A stretch of 23,254 bases of DNA from a virus, in IMG/VR virus record IMGVR_UViG_3300024320_000046, positions 1-23,254 of that record, one strand, 5' to 3'. The notes beneath the pieces are model-generated. The model made no database searches, was not told the origin of the DNA, and saw only the letters and a program-made list of their open reading frames with translations. A program made the position numbers and the translations under genes. Position 1 is the first letter of the stretch, and the number at the start of each line of letters is the position of its first letter. Of the stretch, positions 11,313-23,254 are shown in pieces.

Positions 11313-11489
11313 ATGAAGAACGTAAAACATTACACAAGAGATGGTAAAGTACATAAGGGTGGTACTCACAAAATGCCTAATGGGCATTTACATTCCGGAG
11401 CTAAACACTCAAAAACTAGTAAAAGGCTTTATCACTTAAAAGATTTGTCAAAGACAGTACAAGCAAAATTAAAAAATAAGAAAAAATAA
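11313..11489 (+). CDS. 58-residue His/Lys-rich conserved microprotein
   Basis: The translation starts MKNVKHYTRDGKVHKGGTHK and continues with MPNGHLHSGAKHSKTSKRLYHLKDL and a Lys-rich end (KAKLKNKKK-like, residues about 50-58). The G-x-x-H-K-M-P-N-G-x-x-H-[ST]-G-x-x-H-[ST]-K-x-S-K-x-L-[FY]-H-L-x-D-L pattern is one I recognise from short marine phage proteins of unknown function. Spacing (one base after the preceding stop) fits the operon. It is the last gene of the late block, and its Lys-rich 3' end doubles as the U-tract template of the opposing terminator. Confidence 0.65.
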   Translation: MKNVKHYTRDGKVHKGGTHKMPNGHLHSGAKHSKTSKRLYHLKDLSKTVQAKLKNKKK

Positions 11490-11515
11490 AAGGTGGTGCG
11501 AGGAAAGACACCACC
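11471..11515 (-). terminator. Rho-independent terminator of the replication/nrd operon
   Basis: Read on the minus strand, GGTGGTG (11515-11509) and CACCACC (11498-11492) form a 7-bp stem, with a possible T-G pair extending it, around a 10-base loop. A U-rich run of about 20 bases follows (positions 11491-11471, only single A and C interruptions). It sits 14 bases after the nrdA stop. No U-tract follows the hairpin on the plus strand. Confidence 0.85.
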
Positions 11516-11529
11516 GATTACTTTGGGGA

Positions 11530-13239
11530 TTAACCTTCACATGCTACACATTCACCACTACTACCTCTTACTCCAGCCTCACTTCTTAAATAGTATAATG
11601 ACTTTATATATTTGTCTTTAAAAGCTAGTTTATGCACCCTAGATATTTCTTCTTCAGGGGTGTCAGAGGGAAAGAATAAGTTTAAGGACTGTGCCTGACA
11701 TATACTTCTTTGTCTTGCACTAGCTAATCTAACTAACACCTCTTGATTAATCTCAAAGCTAGTTTTAAATACAGCTTTCTCTTCATCCGTAAGCCAATCA
11801 ACTAACTGTACTGAACCATTATCCTTAATGATTTGATTAATGGTCTCGTCATTGTATACGTCTTTAGACTTCATTAACTCTATCAGTACAGGGTTGATGC
11901 GGTTTATCTCACCAGCTGGGCTTCCTTGTACGAATACATTTTTATAAACTGGTTCGATTCCTTGTGATACACTACCGCAAACTAATGCACTAGAACTATT
12001 AGGGGCTATGGCCAGTAAGTGAGTATTACGGACTCCATGCCCTTTACACCACTTAGGTTCACCCTTAGTCTTAGCTAACATCTGAGTAGCTTTTACAGCG
12101 TCTTTCTTTATATCCTTAAACATATTCATATTTAAAGTATGAGCTTCAAGTGATTCAATGTCAATCATATTTTGTTGTAGGTAGGTATGGAATCCTAGTG
12201 TTCCTAGCCCCAATGCCCTACCAGATTCAGTAAATCTAACTGCACTTTCTAAACCTTTTATACCCCTACCCATCTGTATAAACTCTTCCGCAACACAATC
12301 TAGGAATACGATAGCATCATGTACTGCATCTGTATCTTTCCATTCATCATACTTAGCTAAATTCATAGACGATAATACACAAGTAAAGGTATGGAACTCG
12401 TCACTATGTAATGTAATCTCTGTACATAAATTACTAGCTTTAACTTTTAGACCATGCTCCGCATACATAGGTGGATTCTGGCTGTTCATCTTATCAATAA
12501 AAACAAAGTAACCTTTACCTGTTAACATCTTAACCTTCATAGCTTTCTGATAACGAGACATAGCATCTTCATCTTTACTGTCTAATCTAGTAATAAAATC
12601 TTCAGTTACTAACCAACCTATATTACAATCATCAGGGTGGTTAATAACATAGTCAGCTATCTCCCAGAAATCACCATGCTCCATTTCTAAGTAACCCGCC
12701 CATGCACCTCTTCTAGTATTACCTTGAGATACATCACGAGATAACTGTACAAAGTCTTTGAGTACGGGAAGTATACCACTTGCCACTCCTCCAGCGGAAA
12801 TCGGCATACCTCTCTCCCGTATTTCACCAAGATAACTTGAAGTACCAAAACCATTCTTACTAAGAACTGCTGTTTCTTTTTGTGAATCATAAAAGTCATA
12901 GACATTATCACCCACATAATTACCACTACAAGATACAGGACAACCTTTTTTAGAACCCATGTTAGCTAGTATAGGGGTAGAGCAGGCAAGCCATCCGTTC
13001 CACATAAGATTAAAGAATACTTTTCTGTAGTGTTCTTCTTCGCTTCCCATATGACTTGCTGCCGCAGTTGAGATTCTTTTATAAATAGAATATAAGTCAG
13101 GGTATTCAGGGCTAGTATATTTATCTTTTAATATCTGCCAAGATGGGGTAGTAACCCATAGGGGTAGTTTACCCTCTGCTTGTAACCTCTTACGTTCATC
13201 CCCTAGTTCATCATAAATTGATTTATGTTTTTGTACCAT
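11530..13239 (-). CDS. nrdA: Class I ribonucleotide reductase, large (alpha) subunit
   Basis: 569 residues from ATG 13239, preceded by GAGGG; an in-frame TTG at 13269 lacks such support. The enzyme reduces ribonucleotides to deoxyribonucleotides with NrdB. Visible residues: STPILAN (87-93); redox Cys104 in PVSCSGN; active-site Asn270-Leu-Cys272-Thr-Glu274 (equivalent to E. coli N437, C439, E441); second redox Cys287; substrate-site region PNSSSALVCGSVSQGIEP (413-430); radical-transfer Tyr549-Tyr550 (KSLYY); and a C-terminal CVAC pair (564, 567). It is much shorter than E. coli NrdA (761) and has no N-terminal ATP-cone, so allosteric activity control is probably absent. It is the last gene of the leftward operon and overlaps the nuclease-like gene by 17 bases. 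Confidence 0.92.
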   Translation of the reverse strand: MVQKHKSIYDELGDERKRLQAEGKLPLWVTTPSWQILKDKYTSPEYPDLYSIYKRISTAAASHMGSEEEHYRKVFFNLMWNGWLACSTPILANMGSKKGCPVSCSGNYVGDNVYDFYDSQKETAVLSKNGFGTSSYLGEIRERGMPISAGGVASGILPVLKDFVQLSRDVSQGNTRRGAWAGYLEMEHGDFWEIADYVINHPDDCNIGWLVTEDFITRLDSKDEDAMSRYQKAMKVKMLTGKGYFVFIDKMNSQNPPMYAEHGLKVKASNLCTEITLHSDEFHTFTCVLSSMNLAKYDEWKDTDAVHDAIVFLDCVAEEFIQMGRGIKGLESAVRFTESGRALGLGTLGFHTYLQQNMIDIESLEAHTLNMNMFKDIKKDAVKATQMLAKTKGEPKWCKGHGVRNTHLLAIAPNSSSALVCGSVSQGIEPVYKNVFVQGSPAGEINRINPVLIELMKSKDVYNDETINQIIKDNGSVQLVDWLTDEEKAVFKTSFEINQEVLVRLASARQRSICQAQSLNLFFPSDTPEEEISRVHKLAFKDKYIKSLYYLRSEAGVRGSSGECVACEG

Positions 13240-16674: not shown

Positions 16675-18509
16675 TAGTCTTTTCCAAAAGAAATATCACA
16701 ATCCAAGTCTCTGTTTAGTTTCAGAAGCTTGTTCACATTTTGTATAGATTCTTTTAATATTGCTGTTACTTCCTGTTGTTTATTTTCCTGTAATTCTAGG
16801 ATAACTTCATCATGGAACTGAGCTGTTAATTGCTTTCTTTTCCTTACGATAAAGGCTAACCACATATCAAAGCAATATGTACCTGTACCTTGATTCAGGG
16901 TAGAGAACTTATCTTTATCTGCTTTAAGATAATAATATAATTCAGATACAGGATTCCAAAGCCACATTTTTTCATCCACTATTTTAACTTCACAATCCTT
17001 TGCTATCTCTTTTAATGACCAGTTTCTTTTCCAATATGCTTTGTGTATTTTAGTAGCTTCACCCTCACTAATACCTAACTGTCTTGATAAAGTAGTAACA
17101 CCTGCTCCATAAGTACAGGCATAGTTACCACCTTTGTAGTTATGTCTGAGTTGTGATACTTCATCAGTCTTGTTACCGGATTTATATTTATCAACTTGTT
17201 CTTGTGTTACTGCACCTGCTGACAATGCTAAATCTAAATGTGGGTCAAAGCCCTCCGTTGTCATAGCTGTTACATATTCTGGGTCGTACTGCCACATGTA
17301 ATGCTGTTTAGTTCTATCCTCTAAACTAGCCATATCAGAACCACATAATGTATGGTTATCTTTTCTTACTGTAAATAAAGAACGTAACTCTTTACCGTAC
17401 GGTTTACGGTCAGATGGTAAGTTAACACAGACTGCATGCTTAAATCTTAGTGTATTAGTAAAGCCTTGTATTCTGGCCTCAACAAAACCATCATCATTAG
17501 CATTTTCTAATAGACCCTGTACTGCACCTATCCTATGTTTAACTACAGTCATAGTTCTTAGATGTTCTAACTCTGGATTATCCTTAATTAAAATGTCTAT
17601 CGATTCACACAAGTTACCATCTGGTTTTTTAATTTGAGGTATGCTTTTACCATCACCGTTATAAGAATAAGTAGCGGGTTGCCAACCTAATGATTCTAAC
17701 CAATCCTTTATTTGAGGTACACTACTAGGGTTAGGCTCATTGTAACCAGTCACTACAGTTATATCACCGTCATAATCAAACGGTAAGTTTTTCTCTTTCG
17801 TTAACTCATCCCACTTAATACCAGTAGCGGATAGGCTACCATCTTTTTTATAGGGTTTAGCAGGGCGGGTACGCTTTGCCATCTTAGGTACTTGTGGCAT
17901 AACACTAGCCAATGCATCAACCGCTACTTGATAGTTAGTTGTTAATTCTTTATGTAATTTATGAGCCTTGTCTATATCAAGTTGCCATTGACTAGCCTCT
18001 TGCATTGCAGCACAACTCATCTTATGTTCTAAGTATCTAATTAATTTATTACTATCTTTACCCTCATAAAGTTTTTCTAACATAGAACTTTGTTTTTCCC
18101 AGAGTAAGGTATTAATCTTTACATCTTCCTCACATCTTTCTACATAAACTTCTAGGGCTAGGTTCTCCCAATCTTCCACTACAGGTTTAGCTACCCCTAA
18201 TCTTTCTCCCCAAAATTTAAGTCCATGCTTACCAATTTCAGGGGTGAGATACCAACTAAGAGCAGTTGTATCTACAATGTGAGCTTGTAATTTAATATCA
18301 AGTATTCTTTCTATAACAGGTTTATCGTAACGAATAAAGTTATGACCTATTAATCTGTCTTCACTAGTTAAAGTGTAAAAGAACTCTGTCATTTCTGGGT
18401 AGTTAGTTAGTGTGTATAATTCTTTTGTGTCCATATTATAAATGGATGCACAATGTATAAGACTAGGTTTAAGTCCATCCGTTTCTATATCGCATACATA
18501 ATCTGTCAT
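16659..18509 (-). CDS. Family A DNA polymerase with 3'-5' exonuclease (T7 gp5-like)
   Basis: 616 residues (T7 gp5 has 704). Replicates the phage genome. Exonuclease domain: CDIETDGL (Asp7, Glu9), GHNFIRYDKPV (Asp62), CEEDVKIN (Asp129). Polymerase: motif A SDMASLEDR with Asp392 and Glu397; motif B R455-H-N-Y-K459-G-G-N-Y463-A-C-T-Y467-G; motif C QFHDEV with His566, Asp567, Glu568. Tyr463 occupies the position equivalent to E. coli Pol I Phe762 and T7 Tyr526. The PNPSSVPQIKDWLESLGW segment (about 260-276) matches the T7-type thumb region. All catalytic residues are present, so it should be active. The start overlaps the primase-helicase stop (ATGA). Confidence 0.95.
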   Translation of the reverse strand: MTDYVCDIETDGLKPSLIHCASIYNMDTKELYTLTNYPEMTEFFYTLTSEDRLIGHNFIRYDKPVIERILDIKLQAHIVDTTALSWYLTPEIGKHGLKFWGERLGVAKPVVEDWENLALEVYVERCEEDVKINTLLWEKQSSMLEKLYEGKDSNKLIRYLEHKMSCAAMQEASQWQLDIDKAHKLHKELTTNYQVAVDALASVMPQVPKMAKRTRPAKPYKKDGSLSATGIKWDELTKEKNLPFDYDGDITVVTGYNEPNPSSVPQIKDWLESLGWQPATYSYNGDGKSIPQIKKPDGNLCESIDILIKDNPELEHLRTMTVVKHRIGAVQGLLENANDDGFVEARIQGFTNTLRFKHAVCVNLPSDRKPYGKELRSLFTVRKDNHTLCGSDMASLEDRTKQHYMWQYDPEYVTAMTTEGFDPHLDLALSAGAVTQEQVDKYKSGNKTDEVSQLRHNYKGGNYACTYGAGVTTLSRQLGISEGEATKIHKAYWKRNWSLKEIAKDCEVKIVDEKMWLWNPVSELYYYLKADKDKFSTLNQGTGTYCFDMWLAFIVRKRKQLTAQFHDEVILELQENKQQEVTAILKESIQNVNKLLKLNRDLDCDISFGKDYSQIH

Positions 18510-20161
18510 CTTGCTTTACCCCACCTGTCCGGCTCTAAATAAGTTACTGTCTCTTCATCAAAGTATACATCACAGCTATAGCTTTGTCCAAAGTCTCGGT
18601 CATACAACATCTGAAAGGTGGACATATTCTTTCTTTCCGGTGAACACTCTTCCGTTCTATCCCTCATAATACCATGGCCATAGTGAAACCACTTTTCCAT
18701 TGCCCTACTTCCAGTAAATTCAGAACTTAAAACTTTAGCCCCTTGCTCATGGGTCTTAGCACCTTTTGGTTTAGGGTTAACATGAGAATAACAGAATATA
18801 GTAATAGGGTAATTCTGTACTAGGTCTGCCATATCAGTACATATTTCATTGAGCTTATCATTGGCAGTACTAGAGTCAAAGCGACTGACCAATGCAGTCA
18901 ACGGGTCTAGTATAAATATATTAATACCATCTAACAAATGCATTTCCTCTATTGCTACTCTTATATCTTCCCAATCCCTACTACCTGACCTATCGTAAAA
19001 TCTAACTTTACCCTCTAATGATTCTAAAGTATCCCTTAGTAATTCGTCTGAGTATTCTTTATCAGGTCTAGTAAAATCTAACTTAGCTTCTTTACTTGCT
19101 AACTTCTTAGCAGTTTTTACGGGTGAGTTTTCTAAATCAAATATGCCTACCTTTACTTTCTCATTGTATACGAGATGATGTACTAACTGATAGCAATGGT
19201 CACTCTTACCAATCTTAGGTGCTGCTCCAACCACATGAATTGTATGTGGTCTAATACCAAAACAAGCCCTAGTAACAGTAGCCCAAGGGAATGTTAAACC
19301 CATCTGGGGTTTCTCCATAGCCTTATCTATAAAGTCAGACACATCTACTACTTCACCCTGTCTTAAAACTTGAGCATTCCAAACAGTAGCTTGATATAAT
19401 TCCTTTCCTTTACCTTTTACTAACATATCACTAGCATCTTTCTCTGAGAGTATAGCTACCTTTGCTAGTGGTATAATCTTTAGTGCATCTTTCGTTGCTT
19501 TCTTTCCTGCACTATCGTTATCGAAACATAAGATAACTTCCTGATATTTATTTATAAAATCTCTGTTGTGCAGTAAGTCTTTACTAGCAGATGTTGCACC
19601 ACGAGTAAGAGATACAACCGCAGGTTTATACTGTGCATACTTAGGCGGGGTGTTGTCTAGTATAACTTGATGTAAGGCCATAGCATCTAGCCTACCCTCA
19701 GTTATAAATAGTTTACGGGAGAGGGGTACTATACTTTGTCCCCATAAATCAAACTCACCCTTTCTATTACCAACTGCTTTAAAGTTTTTATTTATACAAT
19801 CCCTAACTTCATAGCCTATTAGCTCACCGTTGTTATGGTCAGGGTAGTAGTGTTCTGTTATCGTAGTGCCGTCTACTTCGCTTAAAGCTAACCTGACACC
19901 ATAGTATTCTACGGTATCTTTACGAATAAGACGGTCAGGTATCTCTAAACTTTTTAAGTTACTGATATCTGGCATAGTCATAACTGTTGATTCCTCTTTG
20001 TATTTAATTTTGGTGGTGTCTTGCATGGGGTCATACGTTTCACAAGCAAAGCAATAAGAATTTTGTGTACCATCTTCCTGTACAAATACCTGTTTTCCAT
20101 CTGAACTCCCGCAATCCTTACAGGATATTTTGTGTAATGGTTTTCCCCTTGATTGTCCCAT
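18506..20161 (-). CDS. Primase-helicase (T7 gp4-like)
   Basis: 551 residues, close to T7 gp4 (566). It unwinds DNA and makes RNA primers at the fork. Zinc-binding domain: Cys14-x2-Cys17 and Cys37-x2-Cys40. TOPRIM primase: FITEGRLDA (Glu155) and CFDNDSAG (Asp214, Asp216). Linker about 265-290. RecA-like helicase: Walker A GAAPKIGKS (312-320), the ENSP region (344-347) after FDLE, Walker B NIFILDP (Asp419), sensor His460 (YSHVN), and Arg486 in TGSRAMEK as likely arginine finger. All parts appear intact. It begins two bases after the small upstream gene with only a weak A-rich ribosome binding site, so coupling is likely, and overlaps the polymerase start by four bases. Confidence 0.95.
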   Translation of the reverse strand: MGQSRGKPLHKISCKDCGSSDGKQVFVQEDGTQNSYCFACETYDPMQDTTKIKYKEESTVMTMPDISNLKSLEIPDRLIRKDTVEYYGVRLALSEVDGTTITEHYYPDHNNGELIGYEVRDCINKNFKAVGNRKGEFDLWGQSIVPLSRKLFITEGRLDAMALHQVILDNTPPKYAQYKPAVVSLTRGATSASKDLLHNRDFINKYQEVILCFDNDSAGKKATKDALKIIPLAKVAILSEKDASDMLVKGKGKELYQATVWNAQVLRQGEVVDVSDFIDKAMEKPQMGLTFPWATVTRACFGIRPHTIHVVGAAPKIGKSDHCYQLVHHLVYNEKVKVGIFDLENSPVKTAKKLASKEAKLDFTRPDKEYSDELLRDTLESLEGKVRFYDRSGSRDWEDIRVAIEEMHLLDGINIFILDPLTALVSRFDSSTANDKLNEICTDMADLVQNYPITIFCYSHVNPKPKGAKTHEQGAKVLSSEFTGSRAMEKWFHYGHGIMRDRTEECSPERKNMSTFQMLYDRDFGQSYSCDVYFDEETVTYLEPDRWGKAR

Positions 20162-20163
20162 GA

Positions 20164-20346
20164 TTAGTCTATTCTTTTTCTAAGTTCTTCCATAAAGTAT
20201 TCCTCCCCATGCTTTTCAATTATTTCGACAGCATCAGCAATACACCAGTTTAATTTCATTTCATCCATAAGTTCTTGTGTCATTATTTCATCTTTATTAA
20301 TGACATCTTGTAATGTTTTTACTTTGTATTTTTCTTCTTCAGTCAT
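20164..20346 (-). CDS. Small acidic leader protein of the replication operon
   Basis: 60 residues, no membrane span, rich in Glu, Lys and Asp (MTEEEKYKVKTLQDVINKDE, then a helical remainder ending FMEELRKRID). A very strong ribosome binding site (AGAGGAGGAA) precedes it, and it is the first gene after the minus-strand promoter at 20374-20403, so it should be highly translated early. It ends two bases before the primase-helicase. Not recognised; a small host-takeover or regulatory protein is possible. The strong signal and tight coupling argue it is real. Confidence 0.6.
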   Translation of the reverse strand: MTEEEKYKVKTLQDVINKDEIMTQELMDEMKLNWCIADAVEIIEKHGEEYFMEELRKRID

Positions 20347-20373
20347 ATTTCCTCCTCTGTTTATGTACGAAAT

Positions 20374-20403
20374 ATATTAAGGGATAAGGGTTCTAGCTGT
20401 CAA
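20374..20403 (-). promoter_or_regulatory. Promoter of the replication/nrd operon
   Basis: On the minus strand a perfect -35 TTGACA (20403-20398) and a TAATAT -10 (20379-20374) are 18 bases apart. The inferred start is about 20365, giving a leader of about 20 bases that carries the AGAGGAGG ribosome binding site of the 60-residue gene. Two TAAGGG repeats (20378, 20385) lie across its -10 and spacer. Confidence 0.65.
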
Positions 20404-20450
20404 GATATTTATTTTACTACTGAGTATTTACTTTTACTAAAAAATATGAT

Positions 20451-20479
20451 ACCCTCTAAGGGTGTTGTAGGGTAACAAC
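20451..20479. repeat. Two abutting inverted repeats in the divergent control region, candidate operator
   Basis: First repeat: ACCCT-CTA-AGGGT (20451-20463). Second: GTTGT-AGGGTA-ACAAC (20464-20479). Arms are perfect 5-mers and the two sites touch. The core (T)AAGGG also appears as direct repeats at 20378-20383 and 20385-20390 inside the minus promoter and again in both inverted repeats as AGGGT. Location between two divergent promoters suggests a regulator-binding site; an origin-related role is an alternative. Confidence 0.45.
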
Positions 20480-20492
20480 TAATATTAATATA

Positions 20493-20522
20493 TTGACTTA
20501 CAGCAATGATGAAAAATACTAT
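20493..20522 (+). promoter_or_regulatory. Promoter of the small rightward operon
   Basis: TTGACT (20493-20498), an 18-base spacer, and TACTAT (20517-20522). A start near 20530 would give a leader of about 40 bases to the ATG at 20569. It lies 13 bases downstream of the second inverted repeat, a suitable operator distance. Confidence 0.55.
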
Positions 20523-20568
20523 AGTTATTTTATAACACATTTGATTAATAACAATGGAGTATATACTT

Positions 20569-20757
20569 ATGATAGATAAAAAGTTATCGGATGTAAACAT
20601 TGAAGACATGCAGAGTAAGGGTATAAATGTAGTTTTATCACCCAAAGCTAACAGGAAAAATGCTAGTAAAAGTGTACCTGCAATAGAGCCAGAAAGATTG
20701 TTCGTTATCTTCTTAGCCTTTCTTTGTTTATCCGTACCTGTATGGCTATTCTTATAA
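20569..20757 (+). CDS. Small protein with C-terminal membrane anchor
   Basis: 62 residues from ATG 20569, chosen because TGGAG (20555-20559) stands 9 bases before it; the ATG at 20554 overlaps that signal itself and is less likely. Residues 1-40 are polar (IDKKLSDVNIEDMQSKGINV then KANRKNASKS), and the end LFVIFLAFLCLSVPVWLFL (about 43-62) is one membrane helix. It is the first gene behind the plus-strand promoter. Not recognised. A tail-anchored early phage protein acting at the host inner membrane is the simplest reading. Confidence 0.55.
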   Translation: MIDKKLSDVNIEDMQSKGINVVLSPKANRKNASKSVPAIEPERLFVIFLAFLCLSVPVWLFL

Positions 20758-20760
20758 GAT

Positions 20761-20970
20761 ATGAGTAGTGAAGTCTTACTAACTATGGGATGTTGGTTGA
20801 CCTTAGGGTTTCTTTACCTTGTAGCTTACCCAACATCCAATTTACTGCACGATTTTAGATACAAAAGGGATGAGTTAAAGGATGAAGTGATAGTCATTAG
20901 AATATTTTACATTGCTTTATCGTTCTATATACTATGTTTTATTACTAAGGCCATAGTATTAAATACATAA
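20761..20970 (+). CDS. Small two-span membrane protein
   Basis: 69 residues with two hydrophobic helices, about 5-24 (VLLTMGCWLTLGFLYLVAY) and 45-65 (VIRIFYIALSFYILCFITKA), separated by a charged loop (HDFRYKRDELKDE). Size and topology fit a class II holin, but it lies away from the late genes and beside early-type small genes, so holin function is not favoured. It starts three bases after the preceding stop with a poor ribosome binding site, suggesting coupling. Function unknown. Confidence 0.5.
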   Translation: MSSEVLLTMGCWLTLGFLYLVAYPTSNLLHDFRYKRDELKDEVIVIRIFYIALSFYILCFITKAIVLNT

Positions 20971-20980
20971 AAGGATTTTT

Positions 20981-21172
20981 ATGAGATGTACTGTTTGCAA
21001 TAACCTACTGACTGATGAAGAATCTGTAAGGAAATACCCCGCAACACACCCACTGTTTAATAATTATATTGATACTTGTACGGAGTGCCTTGAACAAATT
21101 AGAGAGATTGAAAGAGACTATGAAGAGTCTAAAAAAAAGAGGGGCAATGTTACACCCCTCAAACATACATAG
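20981..21172 (+). CDS. Small Cys4 zinc-ribbon-like protein
   Basis: 63 residues. MRCTVCNNLLTDEESVRKYP gives Cys3-x2-Cys6, and DTCTECLEQIREIERD gives a second C-x2-C at about 33 and 36, a likely structural zinc site. The layout C-x2-C-N-x-x-L-[TS]-[DE]-x-E-[ST]-x-R ... D-x-C-x-x-C is familiar from short phage proteins of unknown role. AAGGA lies before the ATG. The last 42 bases contain a complete minus-strand terminator, so the C-terminus KKKRGNVTPLKHT is partly shaped by that signal. Confidence 0.62.
   Translation: MRCTVCNNLLTDEESVRKYPATHPLFNNYIDTCTECLEQIREIERDYEESKKKRGNVTPLKHT
21131..21160 (-). terminator. Rho-independent terminator of the microprotein operon, inside an opposing gene
   Basis: Read on the minus strand GAGGGG (21160-21155) pairs with CCCCTC (21144-21139) around a 10-base loop and is followed by eight T residues (21138-21131). 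It lies 19 bases after the stop of the 21180-21389 gene and entirely within the 3' end of the plus-strand zinc-ribbon gene. Confidence 0.85.
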
Positions 21173-21179
21173 CAAGTAT

Positions 21180-21389
21180 TCAATGTAATTTTTTCTTATT
21201 TATTTTGCCCGTTGTTTCTTCTTCTAATATTACCTCACCCCATGTATCATGTCCATCTAAATAATATTCATCAATCATTTTGTATTCCTCATTATCAAAC
21301 TTTTCCCTTGCCTCTTTCTCTGAATCCGCTTTGACTTCGTATTCTGTAATATAACATTCAAACCTTTGTACTATGTATTTTTTACTCAT
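21180..21389 (-). CDS. Small acidic protein, last gene of the microprotein operon
   Basis: 69 residues: MSKKYIVQRFECYITEYEVK, then ADSEKEAREKFDNEEYKM, then an acidic stretch with WGEVILEEETTG and a basic end. The 'Y-x-V-x-[AT]-x-[SN]-E-[EK]-E-A' strand-helix pattern is common in short phage proteins that fold as a single alpha/beta unit; function is unknown. Strong GAGGAGC before ATG 21389. The whole gene is covered in antisense if the plus-strand unit reads to its terminator at 21414-21461. Confidence 0.6.
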   Translation of the reverse strand: MSKKYIVQRFECYITEYEVKADSEKEAREKFDNEEYKMIDEYYLDGHDTWGEVILEEETTGKINKKKLH

Positions 21390-21413
21390 ATATTAGCTCC
21401 TCATTTGCGATTT

Positions 21414-21461
21414 AAGGGGTGTTAAAATAATTTTGCTTATCATTACACCCCTTTGTTTTTT
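21414..21461 (+). terminator. Rho-independent terminator of the small rightward operon
   Basis: On the plus strand AAGGGGTGT (21414-21422) pairs perfectly with ACACCCCTT (21445-21453) around a 22-base AT-rich loop, followed by TGTTTTTT (21454-21461). It lies about 240 bases beyond the last plus-strand gene and just upstream of the ribosome binding site of the opposing 21180-21389 gene. No T-run follows on the minus strand. Confidence 0.7.
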
Positions 21462-21467
21462 AATATA

Positions 21468-21569
21468 CTATACTCTACCACCATATGTAACCATTAAAAT
21501 CATTCCAAACCAAACTAAGAAAGGAATAATTGCTATAATTAATATCTTAATAAATAATATTGGATTCAT
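21468..21569 (-). CDS. 33-residue single-span membrane microprotein
   Basis: Translation MNPILFIKILIIAIIPFLVW followed by FGMILMVTYGGRV: nearly the whole protein is one membrane helix with a short polar end. Support: GGGGG just before the ATG and an ATGA overlap (21566-21569) with the stop of the preceding 53-residue gene, the coupling style of this operon. Too short for many gene finders. Function unknown. Confidence 0.55.
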   Translation of the reverse strand: MNPILFIKILIIAIIPFLVWFGMILMVTYGGRV

Positions 21570-21727
21570 TCTTCCCCCTGTTGTAATTTTAAAATTTTAA
21601 GTTCTTGCCTAGCTCTCTCTACTTCTTCTTTACTAGTACCTATATGAAAAAATACCATATAGGGATTGTCCGGATTAAACCTTTCTAGCCACCGTTCTAA
21701 TTGTTTTATTCTTCTTCTTCTGGCCAT
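21566..21727 (-). CDS. 53-residue basic-to-acidic helical protein
   Basis: Begins with an arginine cluster, MARRRRIKQLERWLERFNPD, then NPYMVFFHIGTSKEEVERAR and a charged helix ending QQGEE. No membrane span. The start lies 22 bases inside the end of the upstream gene and follows GGTGGAG; the stop overlaps the next ATG (ATGA). The Arg-rich start could bind nucleic acid, but nothing specific is recognised. Confidence 0.55.
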   Translation of the reverse strand: MARRRRIKQLERWLERFNPDNPYMVFFHIGTSKEEVERARQELKILKLQQGEE

Positions 21728-21912
21728 AACTCCACCCTTATAGACTCGTAGTCCCCAGTAGTTTTATTTAAAAATATATCGTGATGTGTATTATCCAGAT
21801 TATAATATTTAGTATATAAGTATTTATAATTATCTGGATTCTTCATAAGCCCTTGTTTTATAGCGTTATTTGTTGCTAATTCTTTATCTCTTACGGTAAT
21901 TTTTTTATTCAT
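21706..21912 (-). CDS. 68-residue small soluble protein
   Basis: Sequence MNKKITVRDKELATNNAIKQ, then a Tyr/Asn-rich middle (NPDNYKYLYTKYYNLDNTHHD), then FLNKTTGDYESIRVELWPEEEE. Probably a small alpha/beta fold with an acidic tail; no known motif. GAGGATAC precedes the ATG, and the ATG overlaps the upstream stop by one base (TAATG). Function unknown. Confidence 0.55.
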   Translation of the reverse strand: MNKKITVRDKELATNNAIKQGLMKNPDNYKYLYTKYYNLDNTHHDIFLNKTTGDYESIRVELWPEEEE

Positions 21913-22073
21913 TATAATGTATCCTCAAAATATATAATCTTATTTCTTAAATTATCTATTTGTTTTTTAATTGCTGTTTGTATATTTGCATCTGGTTTAT
22001 GGATTGCAATAATTTTTACTAACAACTCAATACTTGCCCTTATATCTTGCGGTATTTCATTTTCTTTATGCAT
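21912..22073 (-). CDS. 53-residue helical protein
   Basis: MHKENEIPQDIRASIELLVK is followed by IIAIHKPDANIQTAIKKQID and a charged helix ending YFEDTL. Predicted all-helical and soluble. GGGGGA precedes the ATG, shared with the end of the upstream membrane microgene. Its end carries the GAGGATAC ribosome binding site of the next gene. Not recognised. Confidence 0.5.
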   Translation of the reverse strand: MHKENEIPQDIRASIELLVKIIAIHKPDANIQTAIKKQIDNLRNKIIYFEDTL

Positions 22074-22074
22074 C

Positions 22075-22197
22075 TTATCCCCCTATTATTAATATTAAAA
22101 ATGTGGTTGCTATGATAAGTGCGAACATAATAGTTGCCCCTATAATTTCCCAACCTGTAAGGTATTCACCATTTAATCTGTCTTGCTCATTCATCAT
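22075..22197 (-). CDS. 40-residue single-span membrane microprotein
   Basis: Polar start MMNEQDRLNGEYLTGWEIIG followed by a membrane helix (about 18-38: IIGATIMFALIIATTFLILII) ending in GG. GGGAG precedes the double ATG; the second ATG (22194) is an equally possible start. It overlaps the end of the upstream gene by 11 bases, and its last codons supply the ribosome binding site of the following gene. Function unknown. Confidence 0.52.
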   Translation of the reverse strand: MMNEQDRLNGEYLTGWEIIGATIMFALIIATTFLILIIGG

Positions 22198-22372
22198 TGT
22201 TCTCCCACTTATTATTAATTTTAATTGATAATTCTGTTATGTGATAGCCACAATCAAATCTTTTTCCAACCCTTGTATATCCGTTGATTGTTGCGTATCT
22301 TTTAGCACCCCTTAACGTAAAAGATGTATCATAATAGATGCCCTCATTATTTATAATTCCGTATGTATTCAT
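22187..22372 (-). CDS. 61-residue small conserved-looking protein
   Basis: MNTYGIINNEGIYYDTSFTL followed by RGAKRYATINGYTRVGKRFD and YHITELSIKINNKWENNDE. The I-I-N-N-E-G-I-Y-Y-D-T-[ST]-F-T-x-R-G-A-K-x-Y-A-T motif looks like a family seen in short marine phage proteins; no function is known to me. Strong GAGGAGAA before the ATG. It sits two bases after the upstream stop. Confidence 0.58.
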   Translation of the reverse strand: MNTYGIINNEGIYYDTSFTLRGAKRYATINGYTRVGKRFDCGYHITELSIKINNKWENNDE

Positions 22373-22374
22373 TG

Positions 22375-22647
22375 TTATTTCTCCTCATTTAAGTTAGTTA
22401 ATGTATATAAACCATCTTTAATCTTTCTTTCTGTAACTGGTTTCTTCTCATTTAAAAATATATTTCTATACTTTGATGTAGTAACTGAATAATCCCAGTA
22501 ATAATCATCAAGGTATATTTTACCATCATTATCAATCATAGCTATAATGCTATTATAACTTTGAAAAAACATCTTGCCGTTATCATTTATTATAAATTGA
22601 TTAGCAATTCTATTGCCATTTGTACTTTGCATATTTGATACTCTCAT
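22375..22647 (-). CDS. 90-residue conserved small phage protein (FQSYNSIIA type)
   Basis: MRVSNMQSTNGNRIANQFII, then FFQSYNSIIAMIDNDGKIYL (about 27-46), DDYYWDYSVTTSKYRNIFLNE (47-67), and a C-terminal KPVTERKIKDGLYTLTNLN. The order N-G-x-x-[IV]-A-N-Q-F-I-I ... F-Q-S-Y-[ND]-S-[IV]-I-A ... W-[DN]-Y-S-x-T-T-S-K-Y-R is a well-conserved pattern in phage and bacterial small proteins; the role is unknown to me. Starts behind GGAGGATA within an 18-base sequence repeated at another gene start (23199-23216). Confidence 0.65.
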   Translation of the reverse strand: MRVSNMQSTNGNRIANQFIINDNGKMFFQSYNSIIAMIDNDGKIYLDDYYWDYSVTTSKYRNIFLNEKKPVTERKIKDGLYTLTNLNEEK

Positions 22648-22661
22648 TTCTATTTATCCTC
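22644..22661 (-). repeat. Repeated translation-start sequence, copy 1
   Basis: GAGGATAAATAGAAATGA on the minus strand, including ribosome binding site and start codon of the 90-residue gene. An identical 18-mer lies at 23199-23216 before the 87-residue gene. In this copy the first 12 bases also encode the last residues and stop (Glu-Asp-Lys-stop) of the upstream gene. Confidence 0.6.
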
Positions 22662-22811
22662 CATATCATCTAACAAACTTTCAACCAATGTTTCTAATTG
22701 TAATTCAATAGTTATAAGTTTGTTTATATACGAACAATGATAGTTATTTTCTTCAGCATGATAACTTAATCTAATTACATCATTTTTTAGTTTTCTTAAT
22801 TCTTCTTTCAT
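22650..22811 (-). CDS. 53-residue helical protein
   Basis: From the second ATG (22811) the sequence is MKEELRKLKNDVIRLSYHAE followed by ENNYHCSYINKLITIELQLE and an acidic helix ending DDMEDK. Predicted coiled-coil-like. The first ATG (22814) is only two bases from GGGGG, the second five, hence the choice. Its 3' end is the ribosome binding site of the following gene. Not recognised. Confidence 0.52.
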   Translation of the reverse strand: MKEELRKLKNDVIRLSYHAEENNYHCSYINKLITIELQLETLVESLLDDMEDK

Positions 22812-22820
22812 CATGTCCCC

Positions 22821-22919
22821 CTATCTATTAAATAAATATGAAATTAATATAACAAATAATGTTAAAGATATAAAACTTAATAACATTATTGCCCCGTAAG
22901 TAATTGTAAAAGTAATCAT
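22821..22919 (-). CDS. 32-residue single-span membrane microprotein
   Basis: MITFTITYGAIMLLSFISLT then LFVILISYLFNR: one hydrophobic helix filling the protein. AGGAGAAATAAAA precedes the ATG, a good ribosome binding site, and its stop codon region (TAGGGGG) forms the ribosome binding site of the following gene, which supports translation. It is the smallest of three such membrane microgenes in this operon. Function unknown. Confidence 0.52.
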   Translation of the reverse strand: MITFTITYGAIMLLSFISLTLFVILISYLFNR

Positions 22920-22938
22920 TTTTATTTCTCCTGTTAAG

Positions 22939-23202
22939 TTATGAATATTTTAATTGCTCTTGATATTGTTCTTCGAATAGTTCTAATAGGGTAGAACGTT
23001 CCCATAAATAGCCATCACCGGTAGTTTTTGGTAATCTTTCCAGAATTACCTGAATGGCTTGTTCTTTTGTCAATTGCATATATACCGCCTGTTCTACTGC
23101 ATTAGCCATAATATGATAATATTCTTCATCATTATTAAGCCAGAGTGCTGTATTCCAATGCGATTTAGATTCCCAGCCGTTGTATGTATTATCTTTATTC
23201 AT
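22939..23202 (-). CDS. Conserved small phage protein of the NGW-W-N-x-ALWL-x-ND type
   Basis: 87 residues: NTYNGWESKSHWNTALWLNND at about 5-25, then helices YYHIMANAVEQAVYMQL and EQAIQVILERLP, and a C-terminal LLELFEEQYQEQLKYS. The 'N-G-W-x-[ST/N]-x-x-x-W-x-x-x-L-W-[LI]-x-N-[DE]' opening is shared with a widespread phage and bacterial small-protein family (I believe DUF7249; unverified). Function unknown. AGAGGATA precedes ATG 23202 within the repeated 18-mer. It is the first gene of the leftward operon visible here; the operon promoter may lie beyond the window end. Confidence 0.65.
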   Translation of the reverse strand: MNKDNTYNGWESKSHWNTALWLNNDEEYYHIMANAVEQAVYMQLTKEQAIQVILERLPKTTGDGYLWERSTLLELFEEQYQEQLKYS

Positions 23203-23216
23203 TTCTATTTATCCTC
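23199..23216 (-). repeat. Repeated translation-start sequence, copy 2
   Basis: Identical 18-mer to 22644-22661. The bases upstream (to about 23240) read in frame as a short open tail ending Asn-Lys-Glu-Asp-Lys-stop but without a start codon in the window, similar to the Glu-Asp-Lys-stop of the gene overlapping copy 1. Confidence 0.5.
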
Positions 23217-23254
23217 TTTGTTAATTAATGTTGCATTTATATTTTATATATCTT

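Follow-up and report, generated by a model that had tools for sequence, protein, structure and literature searches.

We consider it probable that two convergent gene blocks in this viral DNA meet at a dual-coded, one-way terminator, T1, which insulates the blocks from each other and doubles as a point at which related phages swap genes, and that rightward RNA reads over the 69-aa gene that ends the leftward block. The window, by which we mean the whole stretch of DNA analysed, is a virus record of 23,254 nt (IMG/VR IMGVR_UViG_3300024320_000046). It carries leftward replication genes (primase/helicase, DNA polymerase, exonuclease, endonuclease and ribonucleotide reductase). To their right come a divergent promoter gap (20347-20553), a block of three short genes on the + strand and a run of leftward microprotein genes. 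A search for near DNA relatives of the window found no annotated phage, and a more distant DNA search returned only partial matches, all in the replication genes and pelagiphages among them. An Rfam search over the window gave no match.

Gene layout and the hairpin T1

The genes, candidate promoters and T1 elements of this region are as follows.

20374..20403, - strand: promoter candidate for the replication genes, TTGACA-18-TAATAT, with a conserved -35
20493..20522, + strand: rightward promoter candidate, TTGACT-18-TACTAT, nearly invariant in the relatives
20554..20757, + strand: first gene of the rightward block, 67 aa, without a family
20761..20970, + strand: rightward-block gene, 69 aa, conserved, without a family
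20981..21172, + strand: zinc-ribbon-like gene (CxxC...CxxC), 63 aa, last in the rightward block, whose tail encodes T1
21131..21138, - strand: U-tract (U8) of T1; the + strand encodes Lys codons
21139..21160, - strand: stem-loop of T1, a predicted leftward intrinsic terminator inside the coding tail of the zinc-ribbon gene
21180..21389, - strand: last gene of the leftward microprotein run, 69 aa, wholly antisense to any rightward transcript that reaches the hairpin T2
21397..21402, - strand: conserved ribosome binding site GAGGAG of the leftward 69-aa gene
21468..21569, - strand: hydrophobic microprotein gene, 33 aa, at the right end of the swapped cassette

The sequence ATATTGACTTACAGCAATGATGAAAAATAC upstream of the rightward block (20490-20520) is nearly invariant in nine records despite diverging flanks. 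Its spacer is likewise conserved, which hints at an operator or a special promoter. In a relative, L064, a GC-rich tract containing C and G runs (CACACCCCCGCGGGGGGCGGGGTGGGC) lies upstream of the microprotein genes, within about 0.5-1.2 kb of the left end. This phage is otherwise rich in AT, and a strong promoter-like TTGACT...TATAAT follows the tract.

T1 has the structure of an intrinsic (Rho-independent) terminator, an 8-bp GC-rich stem followed directly by U8, and reads GAGGGGTGTAACATTGCCCCTC and then TTTTTTTT on the minus strand (stem 21160-21139, U8 21138-21131). Its d'Aubenton-type score was 31.2, compared with 14.4 for the best chance hairpin in 60 dinucleotide shuffles of the whole window, on a scale that was built for E. 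coli RNA polymerase, with a threshold of about 0, and that may not fit the polymerase of the host. The preliminary description had placed the terminator of the leftward operon inside the rightward zinc-ribbon gene, and these data bear it out. Elsewhere in the window there is a single clear terminator, also leftward (11515-11492, score 22.9). It lies at a second convergent junction, where a rightward block ends at 11489 and the ribonucleotide reductase gene at 11530, and no rightward terminator is visible there (terminator at 11492-11515).

Bidirectional intrinsic terminators occur between convergent genes. T1 is like them in being one hairpin at a convergent junction, but its U-tract lies on the leftward side only and it should work in one direction. 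On the + side, AAACATACA or AAACATACATAG follows in place of a U-tract, and we rejected a bidirectional role for this reason. In four of the five variants the stem is just 6 bp long on the + strand. The wobble (G-U) pairs of T1 can form only in the leftward RNA, again in four of five variants, and are mismatches on the opposite strand, while eight pairs are kept in all variants. These features support a leftward polarity, and the conserved anatomy suggests that T1 acts as a strong one-way intrinsic terminator.

Relatives were gathered by using the primase, zinc-ribbon, 69-aa and middle genes as scan queries, and the convergent layout was found in seven other records (L064, L010, L003, L004, L006, L007 and L008). 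Three further viral scans with alignments gave no new convergent member and only two distant zinc-ribbon homologs (L099 and L100). T1 is kept in all seven convergent relatives, with scores of 31-42 in all relatives scored. Across 106 loci, each record whose zinc-ribbon gene is on the opposite strand has exactly one T1, and no other locus has any. In the window's group the zinc-ribbon and primase genes point in opposite directions, but the zinc-ribbon gene lies on the primase strand in five other records (L011, L012, L014, L038 and L067), and the five same-strand homologs found have neither T1 nor the protein tail KKRG..PL that characterizes the convergent group.

The codons of this tail are the unusual ones that the T1 stem requires. 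Leucine is encoded by CTC in every variant, although CTC makes up 2% of Leu codons here, and proline by CCC (15%); the probability of obtaining GAGGGG..CCCCTC by synonymous choice alone was 0.00017-0.0007 per variant. L006, L007 and L008 keep AAAAAAAGAGGGG (an A-run plus GAGGGG) in a shifted reading phase, AGA GGG GCT compared with AGG GGC or AGG GGT elsewhere, and K-R-G is still encoded. Because the codons are rare and the phase shift retains K-R-G, selection appears to act on the nucleotides of T1 and not on the protein alone. Codon choice, the phase shift and the absence of the tail from same-strand homologs together support the reading that T1 is dual-coded, in which KKRG..PL would exist because the zinc-ribbon reading frame crosses the terminator.

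A recombination seam at T1

The positions at which the relatives exchange partners define one further feature.

21130..21144, no strand: recombination switch interval of 15 bases between left gene bodies and right cassettes, made up of the U-tract and the adjoining stem arm of T1

To the left of T1 the window is about 95% identical to L010, and L003 is about 95-98% identical to L004, with cross pairs mostly at 50-75%. To the right the partners are swapped: the window matches L004 at 92-100%, and L003 matches L010 mostly at 90-98%, falling to 75-80% around 21272-21332. At informative sites between 20554 and 21569, the first partition was favored 148:2 up to 21130 and the second 98:1 to the right of 21144. 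The last clean site of the first partition is 21129 and the first clean site of the second is 21145; positions 21130-21144 are identical in all four sequences. The exchanged cassette is roughly 440 bp long and comprises the 69/67-aa gene, the hairpin T2 and the 33-aa gene, at the start of which there is a second seam (near 21546-21581).

All four combinations of gene body and cassette exist: (1,A) in the window and L064, (1,B) in L010, (2,B) in L003 and (2,A) in L004. Because of this four-combination pattern, the alignments mark T1 as a module joint at which related phages swapped the right-hand cassette. Dense mosaicism is also seen among close relatives over 17700-23254, where identity steps from about 50-75% to 95-100%, often near gene starts. 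In these mosaic genomes T1 is one of several seams, a sharply placed one, and any causal part that it might have in recombination is hypothetical.

Somewhat doubtful, in our judgment, is the alternative that the seam is an assembly artefact, or that ordinary homologous exchange fell at T1 by chance, with no special recombination role for the hairpin. Other seams do lie near gene edges, and crossovers are always favored by conserved bases, although ordinary exchange at conserved bases would also fit the preferred reading of T1 as a swap point. The recombinant contigs are metagenome assemblies. With the word lengths that assemblers usually employ, a chimera across 15 bases of identity is unlikely. 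The shortness of the shared stretch thus speaks against an artefact, as does the recurrence of the window's own combination (1,A) in L064, which comes from a separate metagenome record.

T2 and the predicted transcript overlap

The second hairpin of the region, T2, lies between the leftward genes at 21180-21389 and 21468-21569. Its two parts are as follows.

21414..21453, + strand: hairpin T2, a borderline candidate for a rightward terminator; equally or more stable on the minus strand, where it is a stem-loop before the leftward 69-aa gene
21454..21461, + strand: T-rich tract of T2, TGTTTTTT

On the + strand T2 reads AAGGGGTGT...ACACCCCTT and then TGTTTTTT (21414-21461). Its fold gave z = -3.5 on the + strand and -4.9 on the - strand, and no stem plus T-tract of its quality arose when the region was shuffled 1000 times, while shuffling the window 300 times gave 2; this confirms that T2 is a real hairpin beyond chance. 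Its terminator score was -2.4 or -22.8, depending on the assumed start of the tail, and either value falls within the chance range (threshold about 0). A simple terminator scan did not list T2 since its loop is longer than the limit of the scan.

T2 with a good T-tract is identical in the window, L064 and L004, and is altered in L003, L010, L006 and L007, in which the T-tract is poorer and scores fall to -33 to -65. In L008 T2 is missing, with the convergent genes and T1 present. At the L008 locus, upstream of a primase match, the rightward block lacks an intact middle gene but retains the zinc-ribbon end; the locus offers a natural test of whether T2 is dispensable. Across variants the outer T2 stem is kept, apart from its weak outermost pairs and a single G-C pair that is broken in L006. 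One pair changed on both sides, and covariation was no better than in column shuffles (five sequences). The stability of the fold favors the + strand in two of five variants and the - strand in three. Because the score is borderline, the T-tracts are poorer in four relatives and L008 has none, T2 is weakly supported as the rightward terminator.

The gene layout offers no clear substitute, as no rightward terminator was found at the end of the zinc-ribbon gene in the window. In four relatives an AT-rich hairpin (ATTACTAGTGTAAT followed by T6) lies past the zinc-ribbon stop; at -2.0 kcal/mol it is not stable enough to account for the missing rightward terminator, and the window has no such hairpin there.

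Alternatively, T2 might not be a rightward terminator and might act mainly once transcribed leftward, as a stem-loop that precedes the 69-aa gene and protects, processes or separates its message. We regard this as a possibility of some substance that on balance we would not adopt. The minus strand is as stable or more so in three of five variants, T2 stands directly before the conserved ribosome site, and four of five variants have a poor T-tract on the + strand. However, the wobble pairs of L003 and L010 form on the + strand only, the window variant has a good T-tract, and L008 manages without T2.

If rightward RNA reaches T2, the predicted overlap of the two transcripts is about 330 nt (21131-21461), in line with the roughly 300 bases proposed in the preliminary description. 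The crossed terminators proposed there are firm on the T1 side, while the T2 side scores -2.4 to -22.8, is weaker in four relatives and is absent in one. Similarly, the placement of a rightward hairpin past the last leftward gene and upstream of its ribosome binding site was correct, but its strength as a terminator is borderline. The idea that each transcript is antisense to the last gene of the other would hold in one direction: rightward RNA extending to T2 would be antisense to the whole leftward 69-aa gene, its ribosome binding site and its 5' flank, but leftward RNA would extend into the zinc-ribbon gene by just 34 nt (21139-21172). The sequence AGGGGTGT is indeed shared by T1 and both arms of T2 in the window, where it has 6 copies against 0.6 expected, but the hairpins of the relatives do not share it. 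Pairing between T1 and T2 through this 8-mer was rejected, as it is not common to the relatives.

These points bear on the proposal that the crossed terminators T1 and T2 yield 330-nt complementary RNAs, or colliding polymerases, and so form a mutually repressive timing switch between two units. Its geometry is correct, both hairpins exceed chance, and the window, L064 and L004 share an identical T2 with a good T-tract. Nonetheless, the leftward RNA would barely touch the zinc-ribbon gene, which makes mutual repression unlikely. Four relatives have a weak T-tract at T2 and L008 has no T2 at all, the shared 8-mer is unconserved, and none of the analyses points to different timing of the two units. 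We found no support for such a switch and consider it very improbable. Antisense effects on the leftward 69-aa gene are possible. A search of eight relatives for PF00940 (phage RNA polymerase) gave no match, but its controls were equally silent.

From the observed anatomy, conservation, codon bias and recombination pattern, we infer how the transcripts would behave around a dual-coded T1. T1 would end the leftward microprotein transcript and so keep it from continuing as antisense RNA across the three genes of the rightward block in the direction of the replication promoter. The KKRG..PL tail of the zinc-ribbon protein would be the product of a reading frame that crosses T1, and related phages would exchange the right-hand cassette at the same place. 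Because the rightward block has no terminator at its gene end, rightward transcription probably crosses the leftward 69-aa gene and then ends at a partial stop at T2, in a head-on collision or further on. The antisense overlap would then follow incidentally from the tight packing of convergent genes, and would damp the 69-aa gene mildly at most.

Relation to known systems and meaning

Overlapping 3' ends of convergent transcripts are common in bacteria, and a review describes convergent overlapping 3' UTRs in S. aureus as well as noncontiguous operons of phages (PMC7154746, Fig. 3b,c). The junction resembles these overlapping 3' UTR, or excludon-type, arrangements (PMC7154746) in its convergent genes, with one putative terminator far past the gene end, so that the transcript would run antisense over the neighbour. 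Unlike them, it has one terminator embedded in the coding tail of the opposing gene, and its overlap is one-sided and predicted from the sequence. Excludon-type geometry is present at this locus on the condition that T2 is the rightward terminator.

PeSLs (Arbiol 2010; Comeau 2014), as described in papers that cite this work, are promoter-terminator stem-loop motifs that mark shuffling seams in T4-like phages. T1 is likewise a putative terminator stem-loop at a module-shuffling seam (switch at 21130-21144). By the same description, PeSLs have an early promoter and many intergenic copies, whereas T1 has no attached early promoter, with no conserved promoter seen beside it, is intragenic and occurs in one copy per record, and the phages here are not T4-like. 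T1 resembles both PeSLs and overlapping 3' UTR pairs, and is not classed as a PeSL as described there, being intragenic, promoterless and single-copy.

In this compact phage genome, the same bases would form a regulatory hairpin, encode a protein tail and mark a recombination seam. A broader idea, which we put forward as speculative and rather unlikely, is that terminators in the coding tail of a convergent gene are portable recombination hinges, at which the common terminator sequence allows microprotein cassettes to swap while both transcripts stay insulated and the protein gains a terminator-encoded tail. If the arrangement is general, coding-tail terminators would be missed by annotation restricted to intergenic regions, and such buried terminators may help to explain how phages swap small genes without breaking transcription.
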